Positions 58,377 to 62,941 of a stretch of DNA of 64,000 bases are shown one piece after another. How positions within the stretch are numbered: the stretch's first letter is position 1; every line of letters starts with the position of its first letter. The notes beneath the pieces were generated by a model, which saw nothing but the letters and a program-made list of their open reading frames with translations, was not told the DNA's origin and ran no database searches. The translations under genes were made by a program, and so were the position numbers. The stretch spans positions 1 to 64,000 of the forward strand of contig NZ_BONQ01000151.1 in the NCBI RefSeq assembly GCF_016862795.1, read 5' to 3'. Source of the stretch: Dactylosporangium siamense. Its GTDB lineage: Bacteria; Actinomycetota; Actinomycetes; Mycobacteriales; Micromonosporaceae.

Positions 58377-59035
58377 GTGGCCTATTACGCGCTCGGCGAC
58401 TCCATCTCGATCGACGACTATGCCGGTGGCCCGGGCCTGGGCGCCGCCTCGCTGCTCGCCGACGACCTCGGCATCGACCTGACCATGCTCGCCCGTGACG
58501 GTGCGACCAGCGACGACGTCGTGCGCCACCAGCTGGACCGGGTCGAGGGCCGGCCCGCCCTGATCACGCTGACCATGGGCGGCAACGACCTGCTCACGAC
58601 GCTGTTCGCGCCCGCGAAGGTCGGGCTGCCACCGGATCTGGACGCGGCGCACCGCACCGTGGCGCAGGTGGCCACCAACTACGCGATCGCCCTGCCGGCC
58701 CTCACCGCGACCGGCGCCCGGGTCGTCCTTCCACCGTGTACGACCCGACCGACGGCACCGGCGACCTGTCCTGGGTGGGGCTGCCCGCCTGGGAGGGCGG
58801 CCTGGAGGTCCTGGCGGCGCTCAACACCGCGATCCGCGACGCGGCCGCCCGGCACGGGGCCGCGGTCGCCGACCTGCACGCCGCGTTCCTCGGCCACGGC
58901 GCCAAGGCCGGCGACGTGACCGGCGCCGAGCCCCGGCCGGACAACCGGGACCTGTGGCTGTGCGGGCACATCGAACCCAACGCGTGGGGCGCCGAAGCCG
59001 TCCGCGACACCTGGCGGGCCGCCCTGCGCGGCTGA
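58377..59035 (+). pseudogene. SGNH/GDSL hydrolase, single-base frameshift
   Basis: The first frame (GTG 58377) encodes YYALGDSISIDDY (GDS block) and ITLTMGGNDLLT (GND block). It then goes out of frame near 58730. A second frame from about 58735 to 59035 encodes VYDPTDGTGD and the final block LWLCGHIEPNAWGA, with the expected His. One missing base in GTCCTT-CCACC would join them into a ~220-residue SGNH esterase. True mutation or sequencing error cannot be told apart here. Confidence 0.8.
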
Positions 59036-59040
59036 CCGCC

Positions 59041-59189
59041 CACCCACAGCGGCCAGCGCCACCACCAAGCGGCCGGCCGCCACAAGCAGCGGCCAGCACC
59101 ACCACCAAGCGACCCAGCGCCACCACCGAGCGGCCAGCGCCACCACCGAGCGGCCGGCCGCCACAAGCAGCGGCCGGCGCCACCCACAG
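59041..59189. repeat. Imperfect tandem repeats of about 35-40 bp
   Basis: Units built from AGCGGCCAGCGCCACCACC and AGCGGCCGGCCGCCACAAGC, with CACCCACAG at both ends. It fills the gap between the SGNH pseudogene and the convergent metG gene. Confidence 0.75.
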
Positions 59190-59192
59190 GCG

Positions 59193-60644
59193 TCAGCGTC
59201 GTGGAAACACCGGGTCGGGGACGCCGACCCGGTCACCGTCGCCGAGCTGGGCGGCGAGCCGCGCCGCACCCGCCGGCAGGAACGGCCCCAGCTCCCGCAC
59301 CACCGACCGGCACGCCGCCACCAGCTCGGCCAGGACCCGGTCGAGCTCCGCGCCCGCGCCCGCGTCACCCGCCGCCTCCCGCTTCGCCAGGTCCCACGGC
59401 CGGGTCGCCTCGACGAGGCGGTTACCGGCCGCGACGGCGGCCCAGATCGCCTCGGTCGCCGCGCGCGGGTCGAACACCGCCAGGGCCCGGTCGACCGCCG
59501 CGGGCAGCGCCGGGTCCGCGCCGGCGAGGTAGGGCACCGCGCCGCCCCGGTACCGCTGCACCAGGCCGATCGTGCGGTTCACGAGGTTGCCGAGACCGTT
59601 GGCGAGGTCCTGGTGGTACCGCTGCAGCAGCCGCTCCTCGGTGAAGTCCGTGTCTCCCAGCGGCGCCACCTCCCGCAGCAGCCACCAGCGCAGCGCGTCG
59701 GCGCCGTAGCGGCCGGCGAGGTCCGCCGGGTCGACCGCGTTGCCGGCGCTCTTGGACAGCTTGGCACCGTCGATGGTCAGGTACTCGTGCACGAAGATCG
59801 CGGTCGGCAACGGCAGGCCCGCGGACAGCAGCAGCGCCAGCCAGTACACGGCGTGGAAGCGCACGATCCCCTTGCCGATCACGTGCACCCGCGAGGCGCT
59901 GTCCTGCCACCACTCGCGATGCGGCGAGCCGTCGAGCGCGCCCAGCGCGGTCACGTAGTTGGCCAGGGCGTCCCACCAGACGTAGATGACCTGCGACGGG
60001 TCGCCGGGCACCGGGATGCCCCACCCGCCGGCGCGGGCCGCGGGCCGGGAGACGCTGATGTCCTGCAGCCCGGCCCGGACGAACGCGAGGACCTCGTTGC
60101 GCTTCGCGGCCGGTTCGACCCGCACCTCCTCGGAGGTGAGGGCCTTCAGGATGCGCTCGGTGTACCCCGACAGCCGGAAGAACCAGTTGGACTCGGTGAT
60201 CACTTCGAGCGGGGCGTCGTGCTCGGCGCACTGCTCGGAGGGTTCGTAGAACTGCTCACAGCCCTGGCAGTACCGGCCCTGGTAGTCACGGCGGTAGAAG
60301 TCGCCGCGCTCGGCGGTGCGCCGCCACAGCTCCTCGACGCCGCGGGCGTGCCGCGGGTCCTCGGAGGTGCGGATGAAGTCGTCGAACGACAGGTCGAGCA
60401 CGCCGCGCAGGGCGGCGAACCGGTCCGCGTTGGCGGCGACGAAGCGGGCCACGTCGACGCCCGCCGCGGCGGCCGCGGTGACGTTCTTCAACGCGTTCTC
60501 GTCGGTGCCGGTGAGGAACCGGACGGGTTCCCCGCGCAGCCTGCGGTGCCGGGCGAGGACGTCGGCCTGGACGAGCTCCAGGGCGTGGCCGAGGTGCGGG
60601 GCGGCGTTGACATACGGGATGGCGGTGGTGACGTAGAAGCTCAT
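59193..60644 (-). CDS. metG: Methionyl-tRNA synthetase
   Basis: 483 residues, the short form without a C-terminal tRNA-binding domain. HLGHALE (HIGH motif, ~17-23), the zinc knuckle CQGCEQFY...CAEHDAPLE, EWWQDSASRVHVIGKGIVRFH and KLSKSAGN (KMSKS motif, ~294-301) are present. It charges tRNA-Met. ATG start; the 140-bp leader holds a Met-rich short frame and a hairpin. Whether it is the only MetRS of the cell cannot be judged. Confidence 0.93.
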   Translation of the reverse strand: MSFYVTTAIPYVNAAPHLGHALELVQADVLARHRRLRGEPVRFLTGTDENALKNVTAAAAAGVDVARFVAANADRFAALRGVLDLSFDDFIRTSEDPRHARGVEELWRRTAERGDFYRRDYQGRYCQGCEQFYEPSEQCAEHDAPLEVITESNWFFRLSGYTERILKALTSEEVRVEPAAKRNEVLAFVRAGLQDISVSRPAARAGGWGIPVPGDPSQVIYVWWDALANYVTALGALDGSPHREWWQDSASRVHVIGKGIVRFHAVYWLALLLSAGLPLPTAIFVHEYLTIDGAKLSKSAGNAVDPADLAGRYGADALRWWLLREVAPLGDTDFTEERLLQRYHQDLANGLGNLVNRTIGLVQRYRGGAVPYLAGADPALPAAVDRALAVFDPRAATEAIWAAVAAGNRLVEATRPWDLAKREAAGDAGAGAELDRVLAELVAACRSVVRELGPFLPAGAARLAAQLGDGDRVGVPDPVFPRR

Positions 60645-60690
60645 GACGGATCTCCGGTCTGCGGACCCCGAAGGGACGGACCTGATCCGG

Positions 60691-60714
60691 CTCGCCCCAG
60701 AACGCGGGGGCGAG
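60691..60714 (-). promoter_or_regulatory. Hairpin between Met-rich leader and metG, possible attenuator
   Basis: CTCGCCCC and GGGGCGAG, eight perfect pairs around an 8-nt loop, 12 bases after the leader-peptide stop and 46 bases before metG. The leader contains CGCCCC (near 60751-60762), which could compete for the GGGGCG arm. No T-run is seen. Confidence 0.45.
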
Positions 60715-60725
60715 TGGTGAGCGGA

Positions 60726-60779
60726 CTAGCGCACGCCGACGGACCCCATGACGGGGCGCATCATTCGGCGGGCGTACAT
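60726..60779 (-). CDS. Putative Met-rich leader peptide of metG
   Basis: A 17-residue frame, MYARRMMRPVMGSVGVR, with four Met including the start. TACGCT sits six bases before the ATG like a promoter -10 box, so the mRNA could be leaderless. Its end (SVGVR-stop) echoes the end of the upstream propeller gene (AVGVR-stop) in a short DNA repeat. No ribosome site; chance occurrence is possible. Confidence 0.35.
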   Translation of the reverse strand: MYARRMMRPVMGSVGVR

Positions 60780-60783
60780 GCGA

Positions 60784-62079
60784 CTAGCGTACCCCGACCG
60801 CGATGAGCTTCTCGAGGGCCGCGAAGTACACGTGGTCGCCGCTCAGCAGCAGCGGCTCGGCGCCGTGCAGGGCGTCGAACGCGAGGTCGTGCCGGGCCAG
60901 GACGGTCCCGTCGGCGGCGTCGAGCGCGAGCAGCTCGACCCGGTGCTCGGGGGCGCCGTCGCGCAGCAGGAAGTGGTAGACGACGTCGTACACCACGCCG
61001 CCGCCGTTGACCGGGGACCAGTAGGACGTGGCGACCTCCGCGCCGGCGATGCCCCAGTCGCGGGTCCAGCGGACCGCGCCGTCGCCGACCGCGAACCCGG
61101 CGGCGTGCCCGTGGGCGTCGAAGACCATGAGGGTCTGCCCGTCGGTGGTCGCCGACCGCGGATCGAGCAGGGTGCCGGTGTCGCACCAGCGCCGGGCGCC
61201 GTCGGCGACGGTGTGGGCGCAGACCCCGCCGGTGCCGGTGGTGTAGGCGATGCCGCCGGCCGCGATCAGCCACGGCCCGCTCACGTCCTGCCGCCACACC
61301 CGGGTGCCGGTGCGCAGGTCGAAAGCGGCCAGCCCCGCAGTGGACCCCGTGCCGCTGGTGCCGCCGGTCTCGAACGTCTGCAGGGCGAGGCCGGCGTCGG
61401 CGACCGGCGGGTGCAGGCCCGCCTCGCCGTCCAGGGGCGCGGTCCACGCCGTGGTGCCGTCGGCGAGCCGCAACGCGGTCAGGGTGGCGCCGGCGGCGCG
61501 CAGCACCAGGTCTCCCGCGACGGTGTAACCGCCGGACACCTCGTCGGGCAGCGCCGTCTCCCACACCGTTTCGCCGCGGCCGGTGTACGCGTTGAGGTGC
61601 CGCTCGAGGAGGCTCCCCGTCGCCGGGTCGAACGTCTGCGACTCGACCAGCAGGCCGCCCGGTCCGGTCCCGGACGGCCCGGTGGCGAGCTGGCCGAACA
61701 CGCGGCCGGGGACGTCGACGACGGCACCGAGGTCGGCGCCGGTGACCGCGTCGTAGCGGCGGATCTGGCCGGTCGGGCCGCCGGAGGACCGCAGCAGCGT
61801 CCCGTCGGCGACGACGGCACCGCCGACCTGTTCCTCGGGCCGGGCGGCGGGGGCGGTCCACACGGTGCCGAGCCGGCCCGCCGCGGCGACCCCCAGGTCG
61901 CGGGTGACCGGCTGGAACCCGGCGCGGCCGGGCCCGTTGCCGTCCTGCCGCCAGCCGGCGTCGACCACGGCCGGCGCCGGCGTCCCCGGTCGCTGCGCGG
62001 CCGGTAGGGCCAGGGCAACGCCGGCAGGCGCCGAGGCGAGCAGGAGCGCTACAGGTACCAAACGGAAAAATCGCCGCAC
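60784..62079 (-). CDS. Secreted PQQ-like beta-propeller protein
   Basis: About 431 residues. A signal segment (LVPVALLLASAPAGVALALP) is followed by repeated blades with W-containing strands and ADGT.L, DGTTAWTAPL, DGARRWCD, DGAVRWTRD motifs, as in PQQ/BamB-type propellers. It probably binds proteins or ligands outside the membrane. GTG at 62079, 48 bp downstream of trpA on the same strand. Confidence 0.8.
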   Translation of the reverse strand: MRRFFRLVPVALLLASAPAGVALALPAAQRPGTPAPAVVDAGWRQDGNGPGRAGFQPVTRDLGVAAAGRLGTVWTAPAARPEEQVGGAVVADGTLLRSSGGPTGQIRRYDAVTGADLGAVVDVPGRVFGQLATGPSGTGPGGLLVESQTFDPATGSLLERHLNAYTGRGETVWETALPDEVSGGYTVAGDLVLRAAGATLTALRLADGTTAWTAPLDGEAGLHPPVADAGLALQTFETGGTSGTGSTAGLAAFDLRTGTRVWRQDVSGPWLIAAGGIAYTTGTGGVCAHTVADGARRWCDTGTLLDPRSATTDGQTLMVFDAHGHAAGFAVGDGAVRWTRDWGIAGAEVATSYWSPVNGGGVVYDVVYHFLLRDGAPEHRVELLALDAADGTVLARHDLAFDALHGAEPLLLSGDHVYFAALEKLIAVGVR

Positions 62080-62126
62080 GCCGGGCTCAACGACGGGGGT
62101 CGGGCCCGGTGACTGCCAGGAGCTGC

Positions 62127-62941
62127 CTAGCGGCGGCGGACGCCCTCGGCGAGGTCGGCGCTGAGCGCGGCGATCGCGGCGACACCTTCGGCGGGCGTCG
62201 CGGCGTCCTGCAGGCAGCGCACCAGGGCACTGCCGACGATGACCCCGTCGGCGAACGCGCCGACCTCCGCGGCCTGGTCGCCGTTGGAGACGCCGAGCCC
62301 GACCGCGACCGGCACGTGCTGGTCCGCCGCCTTCGAAGCGGCTCTGATCCGCTCGACGAGGGCCGGCGCGGCGGTGCTGGTGCTGCTGCGGGCGCCGGTG
62401 ACGCCCATGACGCTGGTCGCGTAGACGAAGCCGCGGCACCGGCCGGCGGTCATCGCGATCCGGGCGTCGGTCGAGGACGGCGACACCAGGAACACCCGGT
62501 CGAGGTCGTGCGCGTCGGAGGCCTCCAGCCACGGTCCGGACTCGTCGGGGATCAGGTCGGGCGTGATCAGCCCGGCGCCACCCGCGGCGGCGAGGTCGGC
62601 GGAGAACCGCTCGACCCCGTAGCGCTCGACCAGGTTCCAGTACGTCATGACGAGGATCGGAGCCCCCGCGGCGGCGACCGCCTCGACGGTGCGCAGGCCG
62701 TCGGCGACCCGGAAGCCGCCCGCCAGGGCCGCCTCGGTGGCGCGCTGGATGACCGGGCCGTCCATGACCGGGTCGGAGTACGGCAGGCCGACCTCGACGA
62801 TGTCCACCCCGTTGTCGATCATCGCCTTGATCGCGTCGATCGCGCCGGGCACGGTCGGGAACCCGGCCGGCAGGTAGCCGATCAGCGCGCTGCGACCCTC
62901 CGCGCGGGCCTTCTCGAACGCGACCGAAACACTCACTGTGC

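Follow-up and report, generated by a model that had tools for sequence, protein, structure and literature searches.

One question raised by this locus is why a very short reading frame, rich in methionine codons, should lie just ahead of a gene for methionyl-tRNA synthetase (MetRS). The window, a stretch of 64,000 nucleotides from Dactylosporangium siamense, carries both on its minus strand. A preliminary description had proposed a leader peptide and attenuator: slow decoding when charged tRNA-Met is scarce would change the folding of the RNA and raise expression of the gene, metG. The elements from which it built this are present in the sequence: a 17-codon frame ahead of metG with methionine at codons 1, 6, 7 and 11, running from an ATG at 60779-60777 to a TAG at 60728-60726 (ATG TAC GCC CGC CGA ATG ATG CGC CCC GTC ATG GGG TCC GTC GGC GTG CGC TAG); the -10-like TACGCT directly 5' of it (60791-60786); and an eight-pair GC hairpin, CTCGCCCC/GGGGCGAG, spanning 60714-60691 (60714-60707 with 60698-60691), before the metG start at 60644. 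The similarity it noted between the end of the leader and that of the upstream gene, VGVR and stop in each (GTACGCTAGTC/GTGCGCTAGTC), exists; as a sequence feature it looks incidental, because relatives do not keep it. The -10 element of the leader shares bases with that gene's stop codon (TACGCTAG, 60784-60791). The architecture of the element, its conservation, frame, covariation, ribosome-position-dependent fold and MetRS-family specificity have been computed here, and very probably it is a classical ribosome-mediated attenuator of an auxiliary MetRS gene, with charged tRNA-Met as its signal.

Table 1. Features of the leader and its neighbours, in window coordinates.
Feature	Position	Strand	Basis or remark
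Upstream gene, weakly similar to BamB-type beta-propellers	60784-62532	minus	
-10-like TACGCT (TANNNT), 6 nt 5' of leader ATG	60786..60791	minus	TANNNT in 66/85 leaders
Leader ORF, 17 codons, MYARRMMRPVMGSVGVR then stop, probably leaderless	60726..60779	minus	frame kept in 61/61 relatives
Arm 0 (GTACGCC), outer helix with arm 2prime	60771..60777	minus	own-versus-swapped test; coordinates from fold
Control codons Met-Met (ATGATG, codons 6 and 7)	60759..60764	minus	pair in 69/85 leaders
Arm 1 (GCCCC), partner arm 2	60753..60757	minus	covariation
Arm 2 (GGGGT), partner arm 1 or arm 3	60743..60747	minus	covariation and folding
Arm 2prime (GGCGTGC), partner arm 0	60731..60737	minus	own-versus-swapped test and fold
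Arm 3 (CTCGCCCC), 5' arm of terminator-like hairpin	60707..60714	minus	3:4 covariation
Arm 4 (GGGGCGAG), 3' arm of terminator-like hairpin, no T-tract after it	60691..60698	minus	covariation
Shine-Dalgarno-like GGAG of metG	60652..60655	minus	sequence
Auxiliary type-1 methionyl-tRNA synthetase gene, 483 aa	59193..60644	minus	TIGR00398 above cut-off; solved relatives type-1

The simplest account would be chance. For comparison, 85 leaders of this design were curated, nearly all actinobacterial; the counts include close relatives many times, and footprint size, arm choice and sequence relatedness affect the numbers given below. The shared design consists of TANNNT, a start codon, a Met pair with a C-rich arm immediately 3' of it, the G-rich partner of that arm and a second hairpin. 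As in an attenuator, the leader frame holds codons for the amino acid of the gene that would be controlled: an adjacent Met pair in 69 of the 85, and a single internal Met codon, with no adjacent pair, in the remaining 16. The fourth Met of the window (codon 11) is not conserved, its position being Thr in the nearest relative (L088). Because this first extraction required an in-frame Met, it was repeated without that demand, starts being set solely by TANNNT plus 6-7 nt; ATGATG was then in frame in 61 of 61 distinct cases, over eight lengths and with zero intervening stop codons. To judge from the sequences, the leader is far beyond chance: relatives repeat its start codon, its Met codons 6-7, its two stems and its -10 element. 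The preliminary description had staked its proposal on conservation of the Met codons, and codons 6 and 7 are indeed conserved across metG leaders.

The spacing of the -10 element bears on how the frame is read. TANNNT lies 6 or 7 nt 5' of the leader ATG in 66 of the 85 leaders, where about 0.2 would be expected at any one position, and it is all but absent at other distances. In actinobacteria, such a spacing implies that transcription starts at the AUG itself. The leader ORF is probably translated from a leaderless transcript; for the attenuator model we infer both this transcript start and the translation of the leader.

The RNA pairings were examined in two ways. Stems 1:2 and 3:4 together show 70 double-changed cells in the window's subgroup (21.6 +/- 3.6 when shuffled) and 19 in the other subgroup (4.0 +/- 1.8 when shuffled), in alignments that were fitted to the structure and are hence biased towards it; sliding the partner columns strongly reduces the signal. 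The outer helix, 0:2prime, was first spotted by eye in the alignments and then tested: over the 85 leaders, own partners average -15.4 kcal/mol and swapped ones -12.0 (p = 0.0002), and own partners likewise pair better among 33 dissimilar leaders. In one predicted form in the window, GTACGCC is paired with GGCGTGC.

Do these pairings respond to the position of a ribosome? In simulations, the ribosome footprint was masked and the RNA folded as it would stand before synthesis of arm 4. The 2:3 pairing then forms in 78 of the 85 leaders (~91%) when the ribosome sits at the Met pair, in 2 (2%) when there is none, and in 12 (14%) when it sits at the stop codon. When the stall is moved codon by codon, the frequency of 2:3 peaks at the two Met positions (0.91). 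Two codons further on it is down to 0.35; on the 5' side it stays at 0.88 and 0.80 for shifts of two and three codons, one and two before the Met pair, and is 0.26 for a shift of seven. The pairings 1:2, 2:3 and 3:4 are predicted to exclude one another, and a ribosome stalled at the control codons would cover arm 1. The 2:3 pairing has no own-partner specificity against swapped partners (0.54), because all arms are C- or G-rich. In the full-length RNA, most stalled leaders still prefer 3:4; therefore, the switch must be kinetic, and kinetic switching is a general trait of attenuation.

The preliminary description had a different competition in mind, between the leader's CGCCCC (arm 1) and the GGGGCG arm of the hairpin (arm 4). 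By sequence this is possible; own partners do no better than swapped ones (0.50), and the pairing was rejected for want of specificity. In the folding model, competition with the terminator comes from the G-rich arm 2 together with the sequence that follows it, predicted to pair with arm 3. The class of mechanism first proposed, a Met-codon leader and attenuator before a MetRS gene, is supported by the comparative evidence; its choice of competing arms is not, 2:3 taking the place of 1:4.

The proposed sequence of events is as follows. Transcription would begin at the leader AUG or beside it, with a ribosome entering the short ORF at once. With ample Met-tRNA, the ribosome would pass Met-Met and reach the stop codon, where arm 2 would be kept from arm 3; the 3:4 hairpin would form, and expression would be stopped. 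With scarce Met-tRNA, the ribosome would wait at the Met pair, covering arm 1; arms 2 and 2prime would pair with arm 3, 3:4 would come too late, and MetRS would be made. With no ribosome at all, arms 0 and 1 would pair with 2prime and 2, 3:4 would form, and the gene would be off. Termination and the response to Met-tRNA are the parts of this model that we infer.

The output of the switch may be read in another way, as an effect of the same leader and the same Met stalling on translation, with folds that hide or expose the metG Shine-Dalgarno site. The window invites this reading: there, as in its nearest relative, no T-tract follows 3:4 and no canonical terminator was found, and the predicted accessibility of the Shine-Dalgarno site rises from 0.17 to 0.51 once arm 4 is free. 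Translational control has, moreover, been described for mycobacterial cysteine leaders (PMC13236596). Across 71 leaders, however, accessibility of the site is independent of arm 4 (0.25 and 0.25), so that sequestration of the site was rejected as a general mode of control; and the bases directly 3' of hairpin 3:4 are T-rich family-wide (0.31 versus 0.16, Wilcoxon 5e-9), which favours termination. Transcription termination is preferred; translational control, the main rival, seems unlikely without being far-fetched.

Other rivals dispense with the charging of tRNA-Met or with the leader frame. In nascent-peptide arrest, the sequence of the leader peptide, not the supply of Met-tRNA, would halt the ribosome; the core MMRP..G..GVR is well conserved in the window's subgroup, as this would have it. 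The other subgroups, however, have different residues around Met-Met and read the stem in another frame: MMRP in the window's group gives way to MMPR, MMAP, MMAR, MMTR, MMGP or MMSR elsewhere, the residues after the pair changing with the reading frame of the stem. The predicted outer helix can account for the conserved GVR-stop end without invoking the peptide. What is conserved is the Met codons and the RNA pairings, whereas the other peptide residues and the frame of the stem vary; peptide arrest is very improbable.

The covariation of the stems would also suit an RNA whose structure is itself the receptor for tRNA, a metabolite or a protein, the ORF being incidental. Against this, the Rfam search gave no match to the T-box (RF00230), SAM or other families: no T-box at E <= 1 in window positions 59000-62000 or at gathering in six related loci, and no SAM or related methionine riboswitch in either set. 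Further, the frame and start codon are kept in 61 of 61 cases, and the -10-to-ATG spacing is fixed; direct binding is, on these grounds, highly doubtful. An Rfam hit to CRISPR-DR29 at 59504 fell below its own cut-off and was discarded. That the ORF only feeds ribosomes to metG, by reinitiation or coupling and with no regulation, as has been proposed for such leader ORFs in actinobacteria (PMC4833913), is scarcely credible: in the window type, ~80-100 nt separate the stop codons from metG, and coupling explains neither the Met pair nor the competing stems nor their geometry.

What gene, then, would the ribosome-mediated attenuator control? The 483-aa protein passes the TIGR00398 metG cut-off, and its closest solved structures are mycobacterial and other type-1 MetRS (the division into type 1 and type 2 used here is that of PMC9071491). 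The same 12.7 Mb genome (G000) encodes another MetRS, in a 607-aa frame on contig C69 (102442-103965; L119, L131), whose best solved relatives belong to the type-2 group: 1rqg, the human cytosolic enzyme and that of E. coli. Because of this type-2-group enzyme, the metG of the window is an auxiliary copy. The housekeeping gene on C69 is without a Met leader. Two types of MetRS reside in one genome, a leadered auxiliary type 1 and a housekeeping type 2 with no leader. Among 27 genomes searched for a second MetRS, mostly carriers of the leadered metG, all but one (G059) have one above or near the cut-off. A third MetRS-like match in the Dactylosporangium genome (contig C139, 32788-33927; 647-aa frame) scores 179 bits, below the family cut-off, and several other genomes have extra matches that resemble it.

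The element is closely tied to this family. The exact pattern ATGATGCGCCCCN{3,6}GGGGC has 10 matches in 395 genomes of the class (a reversed control has 2); nine of these are immediately 5' of a MetRS gene of this type, and the tenth is within a coding region. Covariance models were built per subtype, because a mixed alignment of both (A2), since rejected, had one column out of register. The model of the window's subgroup, run against 61 relatives, gave eight matches at E <= 6e-4, all of them metG leaders and one per genome; three weaker matches were unrelated, and most of the weaker matches of the second subtype's model were unrelated terminators or coding DNA. Among 30 MetRS loci examined, the element is present before all five auxiliary copies and absent before the 25 others, mostly housekeeping copies of the same genomes. 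The leader had no match in plasmid records; a DNA query against relatives gave mostly chance matches past a few genomes.

Some auxiliary MetRS genes have no leader by the criteria used; a few genes counted among these (L058, L073) nevertheless have a leader visible on inspection. Upstream of metG in L058 and L098, eight T follow hairpin 3:4, as in a textbook intrinsic terminator. Two others (L057, L099) have three consecutive Met codons upstream of metG (GRMMM), and their downstream layout differs; they may form a third subtype. A leader of the kind described here, MTRTSHFRMMAPPQGPVRVRA and stop, occurs in L081, a record labelled a Thermoleophilia MAG; the element may extend beyond the window's class, or the gene may have been transferred. 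The leader in a record named Rhodococcus rhodnii (L026) is almost identical to that of Kibdelosporangium (L024), a likeness due to recent transfer or to a mislabelled assembly.

In many actinobacteria, a Met-pair mini-gene within a switchable hairpin very probably turns on a spare MetRS at low charged Met-tRNA. This suggests that these soil bacteria keep a MetRS of another type as a spare, in the way that Streptomyces does with TrpRS; such a reserve hints at natural inhibitors of MetRS. As the start and the control residue of the sensor are both Met, its behaviour in severe shortage becomes a testable question. A more daring reading, offered tentatively and doubtful as a whole, supposes a widespread, undescribed actinobacterial RNA family whose leaderless ORF senses both initiator and elongator tRNA-Met. 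Because Met supplies both the start and the control codons, moderate shortage would turn the spare enzyme on and total loss of charging would switch it back off; the response to Met-tRNA shortage would have a peak, and in nature an inhibitor of the housekeeping type-2 MetRS would set it off.

Among described classical attenuators, none is known to us that works through methionine codons. The full-text literature covered yielded no Met-codon attenuator at a MetRS gene, a scope that does not by itself prove novelty. Vecchione and Sello are said to have placed, in 2010, the auxiliary, inducible trpRS1 of S. coelicolor under an attenuator. The actinobacterial survey of Seliverstov et al. (2005; PMC1262725) reported that it had found no RNA structure conserved at methionine operons, and gave Streptomyces trpS2 and leuS as candidate attenuators of synthetase genes.

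The nature of the element is best seen beside known systems. Like the T-box (RF00230), it would control a synthetase gene by tRNA charging; unlike it, the T-box binds tRNA directly and needs no leader peptide. The pheST attenuator of gamma-proteobacteria, mentioned in PMC1262725, resembles it in being ribosome-mediated and in placing a synthetase operon under codons for the amino acid that the enzyme handles; it uses Phe codons and belongs to another phylum. Mycobacterial poly-cysteine ORFs (Canestrari et al. 2020, as cited in PMC13236596) are reported to be likewise leaderless, short, actinobacterial and rich in repeated control codons; they differ in using cysteine, in serving sulfur genes and in being described as translation attenuation. 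The attenuators of trpS2, leuS and trpRS1 have Trp or Leu codons where this one has Met, and here the amino acid of the control codons is also the first residue of the leader. In the metG leader, the predicted outer helix 0:2prime encloses hairpin 1:2. With them the metG leader shares a short ORF, codons for the amino acid of the synthetase and competing hairpins; with trpRS1, which is inducible, it also shares service to an auxiliary synthetase.
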